In this document: positions 27,039 to 38,065 of the stretch, in pieces | Layout: each line of letters begins with the position of its first letter | Position numbering within the stretch: the first letter of the stretch is position 1 | NCBI GenBank assembly: GCA_012728725.1 | Contig: JAAYEM010000035.1 | Coordinates: 1-38,065 of the forward strand | DNA: 38,065 bases | DNA from: Tissierellia bacterium | Lineage (GTDB): Bacteria; Bacillota; Clostridia; Tissierellales; Tepidimicrobiaceae | Direction: 5' to 3' | The notes under the pieces: generated by a model | What the model saw: the letters and a program-made list of their open reading frames with translations, nothing else | What the model was told of the DNA's origin: nothing | The model's database searches: none | Made by a program: the position numbers and the translations under genes

Positions 27039-28279
27039 TTAAAAGGCCCAATTGCCATCCTTAAATATTTGGATTCTTTCTCCATCTTTAGTTTCTCCTA
27101 CAATACTTAAATCCTCCGATCCAATCATAAAGTCCACATGGGTTAAGGAATCGTTTACTCCTGCCTTTTCCAACTCTTCCTCTGTCATATCCTTTCCACC
27201 CTCTATATTGGTAGGATAGGCTTTACCAAAGGCAAAATGGCAGGAGGCATTTTCATCAAATAGGGTATTAAAAAAAATTATGTTTAACTTAGATATGGGA
27301 GAATCATAGGGTACTAGGGCCACCTCTCCTAAATATTTTGCCCCTTCGTCTATATTTAACAAATCCTTTAATACCTGGTATCCTTGCTCTGCTTCAAAGT
27401 CTACTACCCTTCCATTTTTAAAGGTAAGTTTAAAATTATCTATTAGATTACCTCCATAATTTAGAGGTTTAGTGTTATAAACTACCCCATTAACTCCAGT
27501 TTTTAATGGCATGGTGAAAACTTCTTCAGTAGGCATATTGGCTACAAAGGTCACACCATTAGAAGAGCTTTTGCCACCGCCACCAGCCCATATATGGCCT
27601 TCTGGTAATTCTACTTCTAAATCGGTACCATTGGAGGATTTATAGTGTAGTTTTTTGAATTTCTTTTCATTTAAGAAATCTACCTTTTTCTTTATGTTTT
27701 GGATGTGGTCTTCCCAGGCCTTGATTGGGTCTTCTGTATCCATACGGGTGGCTTTAAATATGGCCTCCCACAGCTTTTCCATGGCTTTATCTTTTGAAAG
27801 TTCAGGGAACACCCTTTTGGCCCATCCTTTAGTGGGAATGGATACAACACACCAAGGGTTATGTCGTTCATAGTGTACTTCCTATATTCCTTTAATGCCA
27901 TAGATGAAGATTTTTTATAGGCTGCGATCTTTTTTGGGTCTACATCCTTTAAAAGCTCTGGATCCTCAGAATAGATGGATATAAAGCCTGCCCCATCCTT
28001 TGCAAACTCCTCTAAACCATCAGCATACCATTTGGGGAATTTTTCAAATACTTCCATAGGCGCATTTTCATATTTCATTTTGGTTAGGGCCTCATCATTC
28101 CAGTTAACATGGACCTGCTTTGCTCCTAGTGCATAAGCATGCTTGGCTAATAGCCTAACAAATTCTGCCCCTTCCACAGGAGCTGTAATTACCAATGGTT
28201 CACCTTTCTGTTGATTAATACCTACTTTAACTATTAAGTTTGCATATTTATCCAACAATTCCTTGAATTTTTCCACCAT
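27039..28279 (-). pseudogene. M29 family aminopeptidase (AmpS-like), one-base frameshift
   Basis: Metal-dependent leucyl aminopeptidases of family M29 are about 410 residues. Here the N-terminal half (from ATG 28279, MVEKFKELLDKYANLIVKVGINQQKGEPL..., EYRKYTMNDITLG) and the C-terminal half (VFPELSKDKAMEKLWEAIFKATR..., GHIWAGGGGKSSSNGVTFVANMPTEEVFTMPLK..., THVDFMIGSEDLSIVGETKDG, ending FKDGNWAF) are in different frames. They join near 27841-27850: reading GVL in one frame and VSIPTKGWAKRVFPE in the other reconstructs the family sequence. The span is 1241 bases, one short of 414 codons, consistent with a single-base deletion. The metal ligands lie in the C-terminal half. Inactive unless the shift is a sequencing error. 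Confidence 0.88.
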
Positions 28280-28751: not shown

Positions 28752-30659
28752 ATGATAGAAGCAGTCAGAAAAATTGGTGTTCCACTGGGAAGGTTGGACA
28801 TTGAAGAGCAATCAAATATACTAGTTGAAACAATAAATTATGAAGAGGAAGATAGAATTGTAATATTAGATCTAGATATAAATAATAATTGTATTAATAT
28901 TAGCATTAAGCCAATACAAGATGATACAATGAAAGATTATTTTTACATTGGAACTGCTGATGGACCAGCATCTCCCCAATGGATGCTAACAGGAAATAAA
29001 CCAGATTATATTATTTCTCAGTCTATACCGTCCTTACTTAAAATAATTGAGGAAGGAAATATAAAAGAACTTTTAAAACAAGCTTTGGATATATTTTATT
29101 TTGACTATGGAAAACAGGGTGGTAGTAAGGAACGCTATAGGCGTATTTTGAATGTAGAAAAGTTCTTAAACCTGGATCAAATGAAAAAGTATTATGATGA
29201 TTCGAAAAAAGATATTAAAAAAACAGTATCAAGTGTAGCAAAAGCATTATCTAATTATATATCGACTGAATATGAAGTTAAGACAAAAAACTTAAAATTA
29301 TGGGCTTTAACAATTAACGGTAAAATTGTTCAACAAAGACAAGAATATAAAAAGTTAGCTTGGCAGCTTAAAGAAGCCCATTTTGAAAAGGCTAAAGAGG
29401 GGACATGCTCTGTTTGTGGAACAATTACCAAAGTTTCTTCTGATACAGGCAAACTTAAATTAACCTACTATATAACTCAAAAGAAGAACTTTGCAAGTGA
29501 TTTAAGGAATTTTGATAAAAATTTAAGATTATGCCAACAGTGCCACAAAGAATTAATATTGGGTGAAATATATGCTATAAGAAAACTAAGGGCTTATATT
29601 GGGAAATTAAACTTTCTTCTAATTCCAGAACCATTATTTGGTGAAAATTTAAATGCTGAATCAGAAAGTTTTGAGAATGCATACAAAAATGCAAATTCTA
29701 TAATACGCTTTGACGATGTCACAAATATTGAAAGAGAAGCAATGATTAGAATAAAAAGGGAAAATTATACTAATCAGTTTATATTTCATTTTCTATTTTA
29801 TATGAAACAACAACAAGAGTTTAGGGTGCTTCAACTTATAAAAGATGTAACTCCAAGTAGAATATATGAAATCAATTTAGCAATATTTGAGCAGAATGAA
29901 TTTGCCAGAAGATGGTTTAACTGGCCAGATAGTAACGATAGGTGGCTAATTACATTTGAGCAAATTTTCTACCTTTTCCCAATCCATCAAGATGAAAGAT
30001 TTGTAACGGAACACAAAAGACTATTAATTTTGTATGATGCTATATTAACTAGAAAAAAGATAGACAGGAAGATTGTAATAGAAAAGCTAAATCAACTAGC
30101 TAAGACCTATTACTATGAGAAAACTGATTCTTACCAGCTTTCTAAACCACCAAATAAAGATATTGCAATGATATATGGTATTTTAAAAGGCATGCTTCTA
30201 TTATGCTATTTAGAAAAACTATCTGTAATTTCAGGGGGTGAGGGTATGGATACGAGTAATTTAATTGTAAGTAATAACTTTAAAAAATTTATTGAAGAGT
30301 TAGGCTATAACGAACAACAAACATCTCTTGTATTGCTTGGTAAATTAATATATGAAGTTGGAAGAGCACAAGAAAGAAACAAACTTACTTCAAAACCTAT
30401 TTTAGAAAAAATTAATTATCAAGGGATGAGCTTAAGTAAAATACAAAAATTAAGCAATGAAATATTTGAGAAGTTAAAGCAATATAAGATAATAACAGAG
30501 GGAAGTAGTAAGTATTTCATACAAAATATTTATAGTGACCACAAAATATTGCTTGATAAAAATATAAACAATTGGAAATTAAGCAATCAAGAGAATGTAT
30601 TTTATCTATTGTCAGGGTATGCTATTGGAAGTAGACCAATAGATAAAAAAAGAGGATAA
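28752..30659 (+). CDS. cas8b: Type I-B Cascade large subunit Cas8b (TM1802/Csh1-like)
   Basis: A 635-residue protein at the head of the cas operon. In type I-B the large subunit recognises the PAM and holds the target open at the base of Cascade. The zinc-binding pairs are visible at about residues 219-222 (CSVCG) and 261-264 (CQQCH), as in the TM1802/Csh1 group. There is little other recognisable sequence, which is normal for this fast-evolving subunit, so the assignment rests on the zinc fingers, size and position directly before cas7 and cas5. It has a perfect ribosome site (AGGAGGTGA). Expression is probably controlled by Cascade itself through the crRNA-like RNA encoded upstream. Confidence 0.88.
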   Translation: MIEAVRKIGVPLGRLDIEEQSNILVETINYEEEDRIVILDLDINNNCINISIKPIQDDTMKDYFYIGTADGPASPQWMLTGNKPDYIISQSIPSLLKIIEEGNIKELLKQALDIFYFDYGKQGGSKERYRRILNVEKFLNLDQMKKYYDDSKKDIKKTVSSVAKALSNYISTEYEVKTKNLKLWALTINGKIVQQRQEYKKLAWQLKEAHFEKAKEGTCSVCGTITKVSSDTGKLKLTYYITQKKNFASDLRNFDKNLRLCQQCHKELILGEIYAIRKLRAYIGKLNFLLIPEPLFGENLNAESESFENAYKNANSIIRFDDVTNIEREAMIRIKRENYTNQFIFHFLFYMKQQQEFRVLQLIKDVTPSRIYEINLAIFEQNEFARRWFNWPDSNDRWLITFEQIFYLFPIHQDERFVTEHKRLLILYDAILTRKKIDRKIVIEKLNQLAKTYYYEKTDSYQLSKPPNKDIAMIYGILKGMLLLCYLEKLSVISGGEGMDTSNLIVSNNFKKFIEELGYNEQQTSLVLLGKLIYEVGRAQERNKLTSKPILEKINYQGMSLSKIQKLSNEIFEKLKQYKIITEGSSKYFIQNIYSDHKILLDKNINNWKLSNQENVFYLLSGYAIGSRPIDKKRG

Positions 30660-30673
30660 GGGGGAGGAGTTAG

Positions 30674-31615
30674 ATGTTGAATAATAGTGATGTTTTATTC
30701 ATTTATGATGCTAAGCTTACGAACCCAAATGGAGATGCGGATGATGAAAACAAGCCTCGTATGGATTATGAGACATCTACTAATCTTGTAAGTGATGTTC
30801 GCTTAAAAAGATATATAAGGGATTATCTTGCGGAAAAGGGTTATGAAGTATTTGTTGCTCAACCAGAGGGCAAGGCAGTAACAGCTACTCAAAGAATAGA
30901 GGGTATTTTCGAAAAGTTTGATGGTAAGGTAAATATAAATAAATTAACAGATGATCAAATTGAATGGCTTCTTAATCAGCTTATAGATGTAAGACTATTT
31001 GGTGCTACTATGCCAATAAAAAGTGCTGATAGCAAAGGGAGCTCAATAACTTTTACAGGTCCTGTTCAATTCTCCTGGGGTTATTCTTTAAATCATGTTA
31101 CTTTAGTTGAGTCTAATACTATTACATCAAGATTTAGTTCGGAAGCAGATAAGGCTACAACCATGGGAAAAGATTATAGATTATATTATTCTTTGATAGC
31201 ATTCTCTGGAGTAATTAGTGGCAATAGGGCTAAACATACAAAAATGAATGATAAAGATTTGAAACTATTAGAGGAGGCACTAATTAAAGCAATTCCTCTG
31301 ATGGCAACAAGAAGTAAGATTGGACAATATCCAAGATTGTATCTAAGGGTACAATACAATTCAAATGAATTCTTAATAGGAGATTTAAGGGATTATATAC
31401 CCAAAATTGAAGATGTAAATGTGCGTAATATTACTGATTATACACTAGATTTAGAACAATTAAAATTAGTATTAGAAAAACATATAGATAAGATAAATAG
31501 TATAAGTTATTGGCATCATGATCAATTACAGATAAAAACTGATTTAGGAAGTGGAACCTTAGAAAATATTTTGGGGGACAAATTATCTTCAAAGCTAAAG
31601 AAGTTGCCTCTATAG
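30674..31615 (+). CDS. cas7: Type I-B Cascade backbone protein Cas7 (Csh2 family)
   Basis: A 313-residue RAMP protein that polymerises along the crRNA spacer to form the Cascade backbone; its thumb kinks every sixth guide base. The Csh2 signature is clear at the start: VLFIYDAKLTNPNGDADDENKPRMDYET, then VSDVRLKRYIRDYL, and VRLFGATMPIK with FTGPVQFSWGYSLN in the middle. The length is normal. It begins 14 bp after cas8b behind GGGGGAGGAG and is followed closely by cas5, in one operon. Confidence 0.95.
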   Translation: MLNNSDVLFIYDAKLTNPNGDADDENKPRMDYETSTNLVSDVRLKRYIRDYLAEKGYEVFVAQPEGKAVTATQRIEGIFEKFDGKVNINKLTDDQIEWLLNQLIDVRLFGATMPIKSADSKGSSITFTGPVQFSWGYSLNHVTLVESNTITSRFSSEADKATTMGKDYRLYYSLIAFSGVISGNRAKHTKMNDKDLKLLEEALIKAIPLMATRSKIGQYPRLYLRVQYNSNEFLIGDLRDYIPKIEDVNVRNITDYTLDLEQLKLVLEKHIDKINSISYWHHDQLQIKTDLGSGTLENILGDKLSSKLKKLPL

Positions 31616-31627
31616 GAGGTGCTGATC

Positions 31628-32437
31628 TTGGGCAAATCAAGTATACTTATATGTGACTTAGAAGGAACATTTGCGCATTTTAGGAAATACTATACAAATT
31701 CATCTTCCCTTTCATATGCCTTTCCTCCACCAACAGCAATTGCTGGATTAATTGCTGGCATTTTAGGACTAGAAAGGGATAGCTATTATGATATGTTTTC
31801 TAGCAATAATTTTTACAGTGCCATAGAGATATTAACACCAGTTCGAAAGCTAATTCAAACAGTAAATTATATCTACGTAATATCCTCAAGTGATGTAAAC
31901 AAGGTTAAAGGTTCTACCCAAGTTCCATTTGAAATAGTTGTAAGTAAATATTCTAATAAAGATAAATATAGCAAGTTAAAATATAGGCTATATCTTACTC
32001 ATAAAGATAAGGATATATATGAGGAGATAAAAAACAGGTTGATTAACGAAGAATTTGTATATCCACCTTATCTTGGAGTATCTGAATGCTTGGGGAAATT
32101 AAAGTTTGTAGATGAGGTAAATGGAGATGATGTAAAAATTATACCTTCTGGAGAAAAGGTTAAGGTTGATACTGTGTGTAGTATTGATAGTATAGAAAAA
32201 AATTCTCTTGAGTTGAGGCTAGATTCAGGATTAAGGTATGTAAAAGAGATAATGCCAGTTGAGTTTGATAGTGAGAGATATTTAACATCCTCTAAATCTT
32301 ATTTGTATGAACAAGAGGGCAATGGAATTTATGCAGTTTTCAATGTGCCAGTATTAAGCATCAAGATAAAAGATCAAACAAAAAACATAGTATGGCTTCA
32401 GGAGGTATCCTCAGATGACTGTTTATTCTCATATTAA
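31628..32437 (+). CDS. cas5: Type I-B Cascade protein Cas5 (Cas5h/Cas5b)
   Basis: A 269-residue RAMP protein that caps the 5' handle of the crRNA in Cascade. The N-terminal ILICDLEGTFAHFRKYYTNSSSLSYAFPPPTAIAGLIAGILGLERDSYY is characteristic of Cas5, with the glycine-rich turn typical of the fold. The start I choose is TTG 31628, because AGGAGGT ends 7 nt upstream; a GTG at 31619 overlaps the ribosome site and is less likely. The 3' end overlaps cas3 by 23 bp, so the two are translationally coupled. Confidence 0.93.
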   Translation: MGKSSILICDLEGTFAHFRKYYTNSSSLSYAFPPPTAIAGLIAGILGLERDSYYDMFSSNNFYSAIEILTPVRKLIQTVNYIYVISSSDVNKVKGSTQVPFEIVVSKYSNKDKYSKLKYRLYLTHKDKDIYEEIKNRLINEEFVYPPYLGVSECLGKLKFVDEVNGDDVKIIPSGEKVKVDTVCSIDSIEKNSLELRLDSGLRYVKEIMPVEFDSERYLTSSKSYLYEQEGNGIYAVFNVPVLSIKIKDQTKNIVWLQEVSSDDCLFSY

Positions 32438-34919
32438 AAAAGATGATTTTGGTAATATAATTTATAAGAAGGATCTTCAGCTGCATTTAAGGGAAGTAGC
32501 GGAAGGGGTTGGTTTTTGTCCTCCCCTTCCAAATGAAAATGATGATTTTTGGCTTAGAAATACTAGTAGGATTATCGGATATTGCCATGACTTTGGAAAA
32601 TATACATCATATTTTCAGAAATATTTATTAGAAGAAAAAAGACGTCCTCCATACCATTATCATTCATATATTTCATCCCTGTGGACCTATTATATATTGG
32701 AAAAAGAAAAAGCAAATATTTTAAATAACAGTGTAATGAACTCTGATTGGGCTAGATTCAGTTCTCTTCTTGGACATCTTGTTGTATTTTTCCATCATGA
32801 TGAATTAGGTTCACTAGATGTTGTTATAAGTGAAGATATATTTGATGAATTTTTGAAGTTTACTTTTAGTACCACTGATTGGCTAGATAAGATAAAAATG
32901 GTTAAAGTGCAATCTAAAGATATGTTAAATGTTAAAGATGAAATTAATGCTTTTTATACAGAAGTACTGGGACATAAAGTGGATATAAAAGATTTTTATA
33001 ATAATATAGAAGATATAATAATAAGCTTAAGTAGATTGAAGGATGAATTTCTTAATGAAGAAAGTAATGTTAGGTTAAAATGCTGCTTTTTTTTACAGCT
33101 GCTATTTTCAATATTAATAGATGCAGATAAGCGTAGTGCAGCAAATGTAAGTTTCATTCAAAGAAAAGATATACCAGAAGATATAGTTGAAAAATATGTA
33201 AATAAGAAATTTAAAGGTGAAGCAATTACTTTTCTTGATTACGTAAGAAAGGATTTTTTTAAAATTGCTAATGAAAGAATAGATGATTTTAACATAGACC
33301 AAAGAATATATACTATAACTTCTCCAACTGGTTCTGGCAAAACTTTAACATCTTTATCTGTTGCTTTAAAAATGAGAGAACGAATAAAGAAAAATAAAAA
33401 TTACATTCCAAGAATTATATATAGTTTACCTTATACAAGTATAATAGATCAAAATTATCAAGTATATGAAGATGTACTACTTATGCAATTAGATGAATTT
33501 AAAGATTCTCAAAGTGCCTATTTGTTAAAACATCATCATTTAGCAGAAATTAAATATAAGAATGATGGAATAGATAGGCCTATTGATGAGTCTGTACTTT
33601 TAACAGAGAGTTGGGAATCAGAAATTATTGTAACAACTTTCTATCAATTATTACATACAATTATAGGATTTAAAAATCAATACTTAAAAAAATATCATCA
33701 AATTGTAGGCAGTATTATCATACTTGATGAAGTACAAAATGTTCCAGGTGAGTATTGGCCTTTAATAGAAGAAGTTTTTACTAGGATTAGTGAATATTTT
33801 GGCTGTTATATTATATTATTAACTGCTACTAAACCATTGATTTTCACAAAGAATCAGGCAAAAGAGTGGATGCCAAAGGAAAAAATCAAAGAATACTATA
33901 CAAATTTGAATCGAACGAAAATTGTAAGGCATTACCCTAATAATGAAAATGGTATATATTTTTCCATAGATGAGTTGATAACACTGTTTAGGTCAATTTA
34001 TGATGAAAGAAAGTCTTACATGCTACTTTTTAATACCATAGATACTTCCATAAAAATATATAACAAATTATTGGAAGATAAAACATTTGATACTGTTAAA
34101 AAATTTTACTTATCAACTAATATAACTCCCTTTGAGAGGCTAGAACGTATAAAAAAGATAGATAGAATACTAAATAATAAGGAACCAGTTATTTTAGTTA
34201 CTACCCAGGTAGTAGAAGCAGGAGTGGATTTAGATTTTGACGAAATTTTTAGAGATCTAGCACCCATAGATAGTATTGTACAAGCTGCAGGAAGAGGAAA
34301 TAGAAAAGGTGAAAAAGAAATAGCAACTGTACATATAACTCCCATCACTAGAGGAGAATTAAGTGATTGTACATTAGTATATGGTAATATACACACTAAT
34401 ATTGCAAAGGAGATGGTTGTAGGTATTATAGAAGAAAAGAATTATTATAGTTGGATTGAGGATTATTTTGAAGAGAAATATAAAGCCATTAATAAAGATA
34501 TATCTAGAAAACTATTGGATGCATTTAGAGATTTGATGTTTCATAGTGAAAATAAAGAAAATAACCAAGTATATATATCGGACTTTCGCTTAATTAAACA
34601 AAGGCCGGATATGTGTGAAGTATTTATAGAACTTGATATAGAAGATGAACAGGGTATGACGGCCTCAGATTATTGGAACATATATATTGAAAAGGTCGTC
34701 CAGGAAAAAGATTTTATCAAAAGAAGAGAAGCTTTTAATAAAATTAGAAGGAATTTTTTATCTTATATTATTTCAGTACCTATTAGAAGGGCTATTAGTT
34801 TAAACCCAAATCCCCAAGGAAATATTATTAAACCAGAGCAATCCTTGGAATATTATTATTTAAAAGATGATACAGGCTTTATTAGGAAAATAGAAGATGC
34901 GGATACTTGGTTAATTTAG
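32415..34919 (+). CDS. cas3: CRISPR-associated nuclease-helicase Cas3
   Basis: An 834-residue fusion of HD nuclease and superfamily 2 helicase that degrades DNA recruited by Cascade. The HD domain shows GYCHDFGK (His58-Asp59), then HYHSY, FFHHDE and DADKRSA. The helicase has Walker A SPTGSGKT at about residue 301, motif II ILDEVQN at about 435 (Q in place of the usual H), motif III LLTATKP, and motif VI QAAGRGNRKG at about 623, preceded by TTQVVEAGVDLDFD. Both activities look intact, so interference should be possible. It starts inside the cas5 gene behind AGGAGGT and is followed 15 bp later by cas6. Confidence 0.95.
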   Translation: MTVYSHIKKDDFGNIIYKKDLQLHLREVAEGVGFCPPLPNENDDFWLRNTSRIIGYCHDFGKYTSYFQKYLLEEKRRPPYHYHSYISSLWTYYILEKEKANILNNSVMNSDWARFSSLLGHLVVFFHHDELGSLDVVISEDIFDEFLKFTFSTTDWLDKIKMVKVQSKDMLNVKDEINAFYTEVLGHKVDIKDFYNNIEDIIISLSRLKDEFLNEESNVRLKCCFFLQLLFSILIDADKRSAANVSFIQRKDIPEDIVEKYVNKKFKGEAITFLDYVRKDFFKIANERIDDFNIDQRIYTITSPTGSGKTLTSLSVALKMRERIKKNKNYIPRIIYSLPYTSIIDQNYQVYEDVLLMQLDEFKDSQSAYLLKHHHLAEIKYKNDGIDRPIDESVLLTESWESEIIVTTFYQLLHTIIGFKNQYLKKYHQIVGSIIILDEVQNVPGEYWPLIEEVFTRISEYFGCYIILLTATKPLIFTKNQAKEWMPKEKIKEYYTNLNRTKIVRHYPNNENGIYFSIDELITLFRSIYDERKSYMLLFNTIDTSIKIYNKLLEDKTFDTVKKFYLSTNITPFERLERIKKIDRILNNKEPVILVTTQVVEAGVDLDFDEIFRDLAPIDSIVQAAGRGNRKGEKEIATVHITPITRGELSDCTLVYGNIHTNIAKEMVVGIIEEKNYYSWIEDYFEEKYKAINKDISRKLLDAFRDLMFHSENKENNQVYISDFRLIKQRPDMCEVFIELDIEDEQGMTASDYWNIYIEKVVQEKDFIKRREAFNKIRRNFLSYIISVPIRRAISLNPNPQGNIIKPEQSLEYYYLKDDTGFIRKIEDADTWLI

Positions 34920-34934
34920 ATATGGAGGAATATT

Positions 34935-35675
34935 ATGTATTTAAAAATAACATTCTTGTCAATAGATGAAAAAGGAGTTAGGCTGCCTATACAATATAAT
35001 TACTATGTTCAAAGCATGATTTATAAGTTGTTAGATGAAAAAATGGCCAATTTTTTGCATGAAAGAGGATTTGAACTCAGAAAGAGGCAGTTTAAAATGT
35101 TTTGTTTTTCTCAGCTTATTGGAAATTATAAAATACTTAAGGAAACTAAAGAAATTGTATTTACTGATCAAATTGATCTATATATATCATCCCCAATGAT
35201 GGAATTTTTGACACAATTAAGCAATTCTCTACTTCTAAATGACTATGTTGTCTTAAGTGATGAGAAGCTTATTGTGAAAAGTGTAGAGATTAAAAAAGAA
35301 TCAGTAAAAGGTAATAAAGTAATGGTACGCGTATTATCACCAGTAACAGTTTATAGCACCTTATATAGGCCAGAAGGAGGAAAATACACTTGTTATTATG
35401 CTCCAAAAGATAAAGAGTTTACTAAGCTTATTTCAGAAAATATGATAAAAAAATATATAGCATATTATAAAAAAGAGCCATCTAATAAAGAGTTTAATAT
35501 TAAACCAATAGGTAAAAATAGACTGCATGTTTTAAGCTATAAAGGAACATTGGTAAAAGGCTATTCAGGGAGATTTATCTTGGAAGGAGGCCAAAGCTTA
35601 ATTGAGCTTGCTCTATCTTCAGGCTTAGGTAGTAAGAACTCTCAAGGATTTTGTTATATAAAGTTAATGGATTAA
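34935..35675 (+). CDS. cas6: CRISPR RNA endoribonuclease Cas6
   Basis: A 246-residue RAMP endonuclease that cuts pre-crRNA 8 nt before each repeat end, giving the ATTGAAAC 5' handle. It has two ferredoxin-like halves: the N-terminal LPIQYNYYVQSMIYKLLDEKMANFLHERGF and the C-terminal glycine-rich loop LSSGLGSKNSQGFCYIKL typical of Cas6. It should also process the degenerate repeats upstream of cas8b, since their core and cut site are kept. It follows cas3 by 15 bp with a GGAGG site. Confidence 0.93.
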   Translation: MYLKITFLSIDEKGVRLPIQYNYYVQSMIYKLLDEKMANFLHERGFELRKRQFKMFCFSQLIGNYKILKETKEIVFTDQIDLYISSPMMEFLTQLSNSLLLNDYVVLSDEKLIVKSVEIKKESVKGNKVMVRVLSPVTVYSTLYRPEGGKYTCYYAPKDKEFTKLISENMIKKYIAYYKKEPSNKEFNIKPIGKNRLHVLSYKGTLVKGYSGRFILEGGQSLIELALSSGLGSKNSQGFCYIKLMD

Positions 35676-35705
35676 TATATGTATGCTTATATGGTGGTGA
35701 AGTTA

Positions 35706-36206
35706 ATGGAAGAGATAAGGGTTACTGGTACAATGATTTGGTACTACTATATATGCAAGCGAGAAGTATGGTTATTAGCACATGGGATAGAGGCTAATCA
35801 AGATAATCCATTTATTGATATTGGAAGATTTCTTCAAGAAAACACATATAGAAGAGAAAAGAAGGAAATATCGTTGGGAAATATTAAAATAGATATTATA
35901 AAGAGAAAAGATGGACAAGTAATTATAGGAGAGGTAAAAAAGAGTTCTAAATTTAAGGAAAGTGCAAGAATGCAGTTAGCCTATTATCTATATGAACTTG
36001 AGGAAAAAGGGATTAAAGCATCCGGTTATTTGATGTTTCCTAAAGAGAGAAGGAGAGAAGAAATAGTATTAACAGATTCTTTAAAAAGAGAACTAGATGT
36101 AGTATCGGAGGACATAATAAGGATAATTAATAGTGATAAGCCAGAACCTGTTCAGAAAAAAACTTATTGTACAAACTGTGCGTATAATGAGTTTTGTTGG
36201 GCTTAA
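35706..36206 (+). CDS. cas4: CRISPR-associated exonuclease Cas4
   Basis: A 166-residue RecB-type nuclease that trims prespacers and selects PAMs for Cas1-Cas2. It has VTGTMIWYYYICKREVWL with the first Fe-S cysteine (Cys17), the RecB metal site KIDII and GEVKKS (Glu76, Lys78), QLAYYLYELEEKG, and the C-terminal cluster cysteines in YCTNCAYNEFCWA (155, 158, 164). All four [4Fe-4S] ligands are present. I prefer ATG 35706, behind GGTGGTGA, to an upstream ATG at 35679, because homologues start just before the ITGT-like motif. It lies between cas6 and cas1. Confidence 0.93.
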   Translation: MEEIRVTGTMIWYYYICKREVWLLAHGIEANQDNPFIDIGRFLQENTYRREKKEISLGNIKIDIIKRKDGQVIIGEVKKSSKFKESARMQLAYYLYELEEKGIKASGYLMFPKERRREEIVLTDSLKRELDVVSEDIIRIINSDKPEPVQKKTYCTNCAYNEFCWA

Positions 36207-36217
36207 AGGGGGATAAA

Positions 36218-37210
36218 ATGAAAAAGAATATTTATATTTTTACGGATGGTACTTTAAAGAGAAAAGATAATACTGTGGCTTTTGAAAGTGAATTAGGAAG
36301 GAAGATACTACCTATTGAAGATATTAGCGAAATTTTTATATTTGGGCAAGTAGATTTAAATAAGGCCTTTTTAGATTTCATGTCTCAGAAGGAAATTATA
36401 TTACATTTCTTTAACTACTATGGATATTACTCTGGTTCTTTCTATCCAAGGAAACATTTAAATTCTGGATATATGATACTTAAACAAGCAGAACATTATT
36501 TGGATGAGGAGAAGAGACTAGCCATTGCATTGAGAATTGCAGAGGGTGGGAGCAAGAATATATTAAGTATAATTAAGTATTACATGACAAGGGGTAAAGA
36601 ACTAGACCAAATTCATGATAATATTAATATATTAATTGACAGGTTAAAAGAATGCAAAACAACTAATGAGATAATGGCAATTGAAGGGAATATACGTGAA
36701 ATATACTACAAGGCCTTTAACATAATAATTGATAATAAAGATTTTAGGTTTGTTCAAAGAACAAAAAGACCTCCTAAAAATCATTTAAATGCACTGATTA
36801 GTTTTGGAAATTCAATGTTATATACTTTAGTTTTAGCCGAAATTTATAAGACCCATCTTGATCCACGTATTGGTTTTTTACATACAACAAATTTTAGAAG
36901 ATTTACTTTGAATCTAGATATTGCAGAAATTTTTAAACCTATAATTGTGGACAGGATTATATTTACATTGTTGAATAAAAAAATTATACGGAAGGATGAC
37001 TTTGAAAAAGATTTGGGTGGAATATTACTTAAAGAAAATGCTAGGAAACGATTTGTAGAAGAGTTTGACAAAAGGTTAACTACAACAATAATGCATAGAA
37101 AGTTAGGGCGACATGTATCTTACAGAAGATTAATTAGAATGGAATTGTACAAGTTGGAAAAACACTTAATCGGTGAAGAGGAATATGTACCTTTTGTTTC
37201 TAGATGGTGA
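36218..37210 (+). CDS. cas1: CRISPR adaptation endonuclease Cas1 (type I-B)
   Basis: A 330-residue integrase that inserts new spacers with Cas2. The catalytic residues are visible: Glu156 (MAIEGNIREIYY), His222 (DPRIGFLHTTN) and Glu237 within LNLDIAEIFKPIIVDR. The N-terminal beta domain begins MKKNIYIFTDGTLKRKDNTVAFES. ATG 36218 is chosen because AAAGGGGG lies just before it; an in-frame TTG upstream falls within cas4. It overlaps no neighbour and precedes cas2 by 9 bp. All catalytic residues are intact, so adaptation should work. Confidence 0.95.
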   Translation: MKKNIYIFTDGTLKRKDNTVAFESELGRKILPIEDISEIFIFGQVDLNKAFLDFMSQKEIILHFFNYYGYYSGSFYPRKHLNSGYMILKQAEHYLDEEKRLAIALRIAEGGSKNILSIIKYYMTRGKELDQIHDNINILIDRLKECKTTNEIMAIEGNIREIYYKAFNIIIDNKDFRFVQRTKRPPKNHLNALISFGNSMLYTLVLAEIYKTHLDPRIGFLHTTNFRRFTLNLDIAEIFKPIIVDRIIFTLLNKKIIRKDDFEKDLGGILLKENARKRFVEEFDKRLTTTIMHRKLGRHVSYRRLIRMELYKLEKHLIGEEEYVPFVSRW

Positions 37211-37219
37211 GGGATATAT

Positions 37220-37483
37220 ATGTTTGTAATATTGGTATATGATGTTGGACAGAAACGTGTGGCAAAGGCATTAAAAACATGTAGAAAATATTTATATTGG
37301 GTTCAAAATTCTGTTTTTGAAGGAAATATTACTGAAGCAAATTTAACAAAACTTAAAATGGAATTACTTAATGTAATAGATACGGAGAAGGATTCTGTGG
37401 TTATATATAAATTTAGGAGCACTAAGTACTCAGCTATTGAAACATTAGGAATTAAGAAAGGTGGAGAAGAGAATATTTTATAA
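37220..37483 (+). CDS. cas2: CRISPR adaptation protein Cas2
   Basis: An 87-residue ferredoxin-fold dimer that scaffolds two Cas1 dimers. VILVYDVGQKRVAKALKTCRKYLYWVQNSVFEGNITEANLTKLK is the full Cas2 signature, including the conserved aspartate in YDV (Asp8). It is the last gene of the operon; the leader and array follow directly. Confidence 0.95.
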   Translation: MFVILVYDVGQKRVAKALKTCRKYLYWVQNSVFEGNITEANLTKLKMELLNVIDTEKDSVVIYKFRSTKYSAIETLGIKKGGEENIL

Positions 37484-37784
37484 TATATATAATACATTTA
37501 AAATTAGATATACCTATTATGAAGATTGAACTGCCTCATAACCATATTGGATGATTATCATAATTTTGTTGTAATATTACGAAAATTAGTTGAAAAATAA
37601 GCTGTTTTATGTAACAATATACATAAATAATAATGTCGTCGACCTCCAGTAGTGCAAAAACCCCTGGAGATCGACGACAAAGCTAGCCACATCAAACACC
37701 TAATTTTAGCTATTTGTATTTTTTGAAACTTTAATATAAAAAACTTTCAATATAAGGAATGGCTATTTGTGGCCATTTGAATGG
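37484..37784 (+). other. CRISPR leader, about 300 bp, with inverted and direct repeats
   Basis: AT-rich and gene-free. It contains a long GC-rich inverted repeat (37635-37678), a tandem pair AAACTTTAATATAA and AAACTTTCAATATAA (37726-37739, 37741-37755), and an inverted repeat AATGGC-N8-GCCATT (37758-37777) ending 7 bp before the first repeat. The array promoter should lie here, but I could not choose one with confidence. New spacers should enter at its 3' edge. Confidence 0.75.
37635..37678. repeat. Long inverted repeat in the CRISPR leader
   Basis: Arms GTCGTCGACCTCCAG (37635-37649) and CTGGAGATCGACGAC (37664-37678), a 15-bp stem with one mismatch, loop 14 nt. It is strikingly GC-rich for this region. 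Read on the minus strand the mismatch becomes a G-U pair. No T-run follows, so it is not a standard terminator. Confidence 0.85.
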
Positions 37785-38065
37785 GATCTTAGACTACCTA
37801 TAAGGAATTGAAACAAAAGAAGGATTGACAAGCTAGAAAAGGCAGCAGGAAAGATCTTAGACTACCTATAAGGAATTGAAACTATCATCCTCCTTTTTTA
37901 TAATGAATTGCAAGGGGACGATCTTAGACTACCTATAAGGAATTGAAACTACTAAAGTGGCTTAGCCCGTATAAAAGGTTGAGGAGATCTTAGACTACCT
38001 ATAAGGAATTGAAACCAAAAACTACCTGTAAGACAGGCTTTGGAGTTAAGAGATCTTAGACTACC
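37785..38065 (+). CRISPR. Type I-B CRISPR array (truncated by window end)
   Basis: Four identical 30-bp repeats (37785-37814, 37853-37882, 37920-37949, 37986-38015) and the first 14 bp of a fifth (38052-38065). The repeat starts GATCTTAGACTACC and ends AAGGAATTGAAAC, giving the 8-nt handle ATTGAAAC. Spacers are 38, 37, 36 and 36 bp, all different. The array is read on the plus strand, the same direction as the cas genes, with the leader at its left. These leader-end spacers would be the most recently acquired. I could not match any spacer to the rest of the window. Identical repeats and intact cas genes indicate an active locus. Confidence 0.98.

Follow-up and report, generated by a model that had tools for sequence, protein, structure and literature searches.

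The window, i.e., the whole stretch of 38,065 nucleotides that was analysed, carries a type I-B cas operon followed by a leader and a CRISPR array that runs off the end of the contig (Table 1). A conserved element is present in the leader. It begins 150 bp past cas2 and ends 105 bp ahead of the first CRISPR repeat, and further copies are found in the same genome, on contigs C77 and C88. Upstream of the operon, an M29 peptidase is encoded on the minus strand (27039-28279) in two overlapping reading frames, owing to a frameshift in either the gene or the assembly.

Table 1. Coordinates of the cas operon, the leader element with its parts, and the array in the window.
Feature	Position	Strand	Basis or remark
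Type I-B cas operon	28752-37483	+	NCBIfam
cas8b	28752-30659	+	NCBIfam
cas7	30674-31615	+	NCBIfam
cas5	31619-32437	+	NCBIfam
cas3	32415-34919	+	NCBIfam
cas6	34935-35675	+	NCBIfam
cas4	35679-36206	+	NCBIfam
cas1	36194-37210	+	NCBIfam
cas2	37220-37483	+	NCBIfam
Conserved leader element, 46 bp (two inverted half-sites, asymmetric conserved centre)	37634-37679	+	Inverted repeat, model matches
Left half-site TGTCGTCGA (long form)	37634-37642	+	Near-invariant columns
Inner stem and centre TAGTGCAAAAACCC	37643-37670	+	Stem 37643-37649/37664-37670; A5 tract 37656-37660
Right half-site TCGACGACA	37671-37679	+	32 bp from left half-site, TCGA to TCGA
Leader body, little conserved across lineages	37680-37784	+	Ends AATGG (37780-37784), the commonest junction
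First CRISPR repeat	37785-37814	+	146 bp from anchor
Later repeats	37853-38065 (starts 37853, 37920, 37986, 38052)	+	Last one cut by contig end

The element forms an inverted repeat with arms of 16 nt each (37634-37649 and 37664-37679), of which 15 of the 16 positions are paired (94%), with 14 nt between them. The sole mismatch in the stem, C37643 against A37670, reads as C-A on the plus strand and as G-U on the minus strand. The initial annotation had described a GC-rich 15-bp dyad (37635-37678) around a 14-nt loop, placed in AT-rich surroundings, without a terminator T-run and with better pairing as a minus-strand RNA. This description holds for the window's copy: the dyad has the same arms minus the outermost pair, the G+C content is 0.54 in the element vs. 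0.20 upstream and 0.29 downstream, and no T-run follows in the sequence. The predicted fold is indeed stronger on the minus strand (-31.5 kcal/mol, z -7.62) than on the plus strand (-26.9 kcal/mol, z -9.70), and on either strand, none of 200 shuffles was as good. Inverted repeats of equal quality (14 of 15 pairs, loop of 3-30) were absent from 16 of 20 dinucleotide shuffles of the window, with a maximum of four placements, vs. 19 placements in the real window. This count is not specific to the element because other hairpins are among the 19. That the inverted repeat is real is settled by its conservation in other genomes.

A search near other arrays had also been proposed, with absence there counting against the element; on the contrary, the element recurs before arrays. 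A pattern search allowing up to three mismatches identified it in 21 of the 249 genomes of the order, and a reversed control pattern gave no hit in the order genomes among the matches listed. With a covariance model built on 50 copies of the element, and a cut-off of E 0.001 for each genome, matches were obtained in 46 of these 249 genomes and in 120 of 398 taken from the phylum. Furthermore, an exact-pattern scan of species genomes yielded 106 stretches. The 80 titles listed for these are mostly Bacillota or Clostridia, along with two of Caldatribacterium and one of a bin named Chloroflexota. Clostridium ljungdahlii (L056) is also a carrier. Two bins whose isolate names contain JPNG, one named Chloroflexota (L037) and the other Bacillota (L063), have similar leaders that fall in one BLAST cluster, which may reflect mis-binning or transfer.

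The pattern matches in the window's own genome, the order genomes and the species genomes were pooled into 121 distinct copies. An array of at least two repeats lies within 300 nt downstream in 83 of them, and its first repeat has the element's orientation in 82 of these 83. An array within 300 nt on the opposite side was encountered only once (L135), where it is a neighbour's array. Among the 38 copies without an array, the sequence stops within 260 nt in 19. The other 19 have room: by eye, a single or worn repeat is visible in 14 (two of them masked further on) and not in the remaining five (L005, L014, L023, L099 and L118). The loci of the later search also include copies without a visible repeat, some of which stand beside cas genes. 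At six loci (L009, L012, L022, L075, L110 and L132), the element is accompanied by one repeat or by worn repeats even though the sequence continues; these are apparently empty or decaying arrays. The repeats are mostly of the 30-nt ...CTACCTATRAGGRATTGAAAC kind, with exceptions at L034, L054 and L065. Situated in the leader, ahead of the first repeat and in a fixed orientation, the element is a conserved part of type I-B CRISPR leaders.

Across lineages, the most conserved parts of the leader are the element and the junction A-A-Y-G-G before the repeat. The remaining leader has a low column information, except for promoter-like positions kept in a subset. The length of this stretch is nevertheless not arbitrary. 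With the TCGA of the left half-site (37639-37642 in the window) as the anchor for all distances, the distances from element to first repeat cluster near 124, 137, 148, 160, 172 and 185 bp. In the first set of 99 leaders, of which the 96 below 205 bp were used, the best period is 12.0 bp. A held-out set of 88 loci, 29 of them new from the phylum search and 59 hand-picked for spread among its listed matches, was chosen before any of their distances had been seen. After removal of 19 repeats of earlier loci and of 16 in which no repeat was found, the 53 remaining distances gave R 0.63 at period 12, with a phase of 4.9 vs. 4.6 in the first set. All 149 leaders together have a best period of 12.1 bp, and the medians of 57 BLAST clusters peak at 12.2 bp (Z of 18.96 at 12 bp vs. 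2.8 at 10.5 bp). The bootstrap interval of the period is 11.8-12.6 bp, and a jitter null did as well in 0 of 5000 trials. For the 29 clusters with held-out members only, which are not joined to the first set by BLAST but may still share ancestry with it, a V-test at the phase fixed beforehand gave p 3.9e-6.

With a phase fitted on the same data, 133 of the 149 leaders fall within 3 bp of a tooth of this comb, vs. 74.5 expected. The 16 others are more than 3 bp off, at 140, 154-157, 164-169, 176, 181 and 201 bp; the window's own distance, 146 bp, is about 2.5 bp short of its tooth. The element thus keeps a phase with respect to the first repeat. For the looping lac repressor in living E. coli, passages of PMC1762422 give fits at 11.08 and 11.60 bp per turn, and a passage of PMC8501960 gives a helical repeat of about 11 bp in E. 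coli loops. Among known causes, a face-of-the-helix rule acting in supercoiled DNA therefore comes closest to explaining the comb, although the interval found here sits just above these 11.0-11.6 bp.

The element also follows the Cas1 phylogeny. Among the order genomes, a model match is present in 35 of the 67 whose type I-B Cas1 exceeds the family cut-off vs. 11 of the 182 others (Fisher 5e-15); 11 of the 46 element genomes have no Cas1 above the cut-off, and 32 of the 67 Cas1 genomes have no model match. A Cas1 tree of 61 rows (60 fetched genes and the window) represents 58 of these 67, nine being left out. On this tree, 19 of the 23 rows with the element just downstream fall in one 20-row clade (support 100/99). 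The element label changes five times, vs. 18.8 when shuffled, with labels set by hand from listed coordinates and several rows labelled N or E later found to have a diverged dyad.

The DNA downstream of all 61 cas1 genes was also scored for the dyad, defined as two half-sites 32 bp apart. It was found in 20 of 20 rows of clade A, which is that of the window, in 26 of 33 rows of the sister clade B and in none of the eight rows of outgroup C, each with an array in the DNA that was read. Compared with 1000 shuffles per row, 19 rows of A and 22 of B score at p<0.01, a further one and four, respectively, at p<0.05 only, and none of C does; dyad scores of 11 (maximum 14) are near what shuffles reach. 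Four of the seven clade-B misses by score make up one supported subclade. For two more, G065 and G127, the DNA read contains no array, and in L302, a dyad is seen by eye with a spacing 1 bp shorter. The form of the half-site also differs between the clades: the long form TGTCGTCGA occurs in 14 of 20 rows of clade A vs. one of 26 in B (Fisher 2e-6), and the short form TTGTCGA in 25 of the 26 dyad rows of B. Through these clades and the tree, the element is coupled to the adaptation genes.

Twenty diverged leaders, 19 of sister clade B and one of the window's clade (G164), with L302 one base out of register, indicate which part of the element is kept. The columns of the half-sites (TGTC-A and T-GACA) hardly vary, while the inner positions pair about as often as shuffled columns do. 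In the sister clade, the outer half-sites TTGTCGA/TCGACAA are kept at their spacing, and the mean plus-strand fold drops from -22.4 to -9.9 kcal/mol in the diverged leaders. These copies still out-fold shuffles (mean z -2.8 and -2.4, the plus strand being -2.8), and the model of the window's clade scores 16 of the 20 at E 0.01 or better. In two related rows, G083 (L447) and G114 (L442), such half-sites stand at the 32-bp spacing around a wholly different interior; the dyad of G083 and G114 lies 116 bp from the repeat, off the 12-bp comb. Moreover, 16 of the 20 diverged leaders (L288-L307 minus L289, L298, L299 and L306), vs. 0.18 when shuffled, have a third half-site, TNGACA, which has the orientation of the right one and begins 51-53 bp ahead of the repeat. 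As a general feature of the window's own Cas1 clade, this third half-site was not found.

Because the half-sites and their spacing persist while the inner pairing is at chance, the element is best read as a double-stranded DNA site and not as an RNA hairpin, a cruciform or a terminator. Judged from sequence, it is probably (at about 0.6) a protein-binding site at the far end of the leader, which would dock spacer acquisition via a phased DNA loop. A dimeric protein would recognise both inverted half-sites, which are separated by about three helical turns, across the A-tract. Folding back of the intervening 75-160 bp would bring the bound protein to the first repeat, where new spacers would then be inserted. 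The stepwise distances of about 12 bases to the array suggest such a docking place for the memory-adding machinery. The Cas1 lineage is the remaining regularity, which makes the adaptation module, or a partner travelling with it, the likeliest reader: this could be the Cas1-Cas2(-Cas4) integrase of the lineage or a partner encoded elsewhere.

The same dyad could instead be an operator: a regulator bound there would act from upstream on the array promoter or on the cas operon, and the helical phasing would be relative to the promoter. Loop-forming regulators, too, typically use a dyad that has an A-tract and lies at a phased distance. In addition, 29 of the 149 leaders carry a TNGACA whose first base lies 43-44 bp ahead of the repeat, with TAATAT behind it by eye. 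In this one subset of leaders, the motif is likely the array promoter. The comb, however, is measured to the repeat, and promoter-like sequence is seen by eye at varying places, or is unrecognisable, between leaders. In the window, no promoter was found by the scan between the element and the array; a single weak match lies upstream of the element, and matches are fewer than in shuffles. As the element also tracks the Cas1 clades, an operator is considered unlikely.

The half-site TTGTCGA resembles the Spo0A box, TGTCGAA, and this likeness suggested Spo0A as a reader. Spo0A is present in 59 of 64 chosen element genomes. It was rejected because genomes without Spo0A keep the dyad: G068, G078, G130, G234 and G232 (99-100% complete) and, less surely, the weaker G064 and G112. 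The absence of this regulator from dyad-keeping genomes also speaks against an operator.

A role as RNA would account for the strong fold on both strands; the element could then be transcribed from either strand as a small RNA, form a hairpin at the 5' end of the pre-crRNA or terminate transcription behind cas2. In the alignment of 50 copies, eight of the 16 stem pairs are changed on both sides, and 29 cells covary vs. 17.3 when shuffled. Such covariation is hairpin-like, but it is equally compatible with an RNA hairpin and with a dimer site because a dyad read by a dimer covaries too. Wobbles in the stem are of both polarities; the minus type outnumbers the plus type (142 vs. 99 cells) and lies mostly in two pairs. 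At least five T within 20 nt follow 50 of 119 window-type copies but none of the 18 scorable diverged copies. With the window's own copy also lacking one, T-runs are inconstant, and an intrinsic terminator was rejected. Against Rfam 15, no family reached the gathering score on the window's leader, and at the loci of six relatives, only CRISPR direct repeats did. A match to IS128 over the leader (31.6 bits vs. a threshold of 80) was taken as chance. Given the two polarities of the wobbles and the chance-level inner pairs of the diverged leaders, an RNA role is improbable.

Recognition by shape, as a cruciform or a folded single strand, has a precedent in type I-A, where, according to a passage of PMC9456107, the Sulfolobus Cas1 binds stem-loop DNA. 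The diverged leaders, however, lose the stem beyond the half-sites, G083 and G114 carry them around an unrelated interior, and the centre is asymmetric yet conserved, which makes this reading very improbable. Among the three ideas of the initial annotation, the protein-binding site is therefore the one that stands, favoured by position, spacing and the Cas1 linkage, whereas the small RNA and the cruciform are disfavoured by the wobbles and the diverged leaders.

That the element is a repeat or an end of a mobile element lying by arrays by chance is hardly credible and is largely refuted by position and phase: several copies occur per genome (up to 20 matches in G003, both strands counted) and IS-like sequence follows some of them (L002, L014, L158), but 83 of the 121 copies precede arrays, 14 of the 19 roomy arrayless copies have a single or worn repeat by eye, and the distances form a comb. 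Phage-borne copies were rejected, as the exact pattern had no match in viral contigs, which also speaks against a mobile element. Among the matches listed, one of 89 upstreams of C. difficile-type arrays in viral contigs fits a loose dyad pattern, with an unrelated sequence; this comparison is weak because some of these upstreams are array interiors. The IS-like stretch itself (TGTAAAATAATTGTAGGAAAAA or close, then a reading frame) is seen by eye about 80-90 bp downstream of the element in L002 (on the own contig C77), L014 and L030 (G205) and L158 (G504), as if one IS family preferred such leaders in these three genomes.

Within the preferred reading of a protein-binding site that docks spacer acquisition, a narrower version can be put forward tentatively. 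The type I-B integrase lineage (Cas1-Cas2, perhaps Cas4) might itself read the bipartite leader-distal dyad, 116-201 bp from the insertion site, with the intervening DNA looped or wrapped at about 12 bp per turn, independent of IHF. The form of the half-site and the Cas1 clade would then have co-evolved, and the sister clade would have gained a further half-site close to the repeat.

According to a passage of PMC9456107, it is an open question by what means integrases locate the leader end where no IHF-type helper is known, as is the case in many bacteria. A site that follows the Cas1 phylogeny at a phased distance would provide a direct handle on this question. The element would, furthermore, show where the leader of a type I-B array ends and which way the array reads, even when the array is empty or worn. 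The stretches shown in PMC6519985, a paper that came up for the half-site TTGTCGA, are oligonucleotides. No mention of the element was found in the excerpts of the CRISPR leader-motif literature covered by the search, dedicated leader-motif catalogues lying outside it. Two works, Santiago-Frangos 2021 and Buyukyoruk 2025, are said by their titles to be studies of CRISPR leader motifs and may include the element.

In the type I-E and I-F systems, a phased upstream leader motif and IHF dock Cas1-Cas2 by folding the leader. The element resembles these systems in that a leader site lies away from the repeat and phase matters. It differs from them in sequence and subtype, and by its dyad with a spacing of 32 bp, its distances of 116-201 bp and its 12-bp comb. 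The IHF site and the upstream leader motif of types I-E and I-F are touched on in passages of PMC12259127 and PMC9456107. In the type I-A system of Sulfolobus islandicus, according to a passage of PMC9456107, Csa3a binds a site in the distal leader that acts jointly with Cas1 at the leader-repeat junction. The site described here is likewise leader-distal. That system, on the contrary, is archaeal and of another subtype, and its stem-loop is proximal, while here, the dyad is distal and the stem is lost in the sister clade; this likeness is one of arrangement. With the precedents of Csa3a in type I-A and IHF in types I-E and I-F, the kind of mechanism is already known. What appears to be new, unless the 2025 leader-motif catalogue already lists the element, is the site, the subtype, the comb and the coupling to Cas1.
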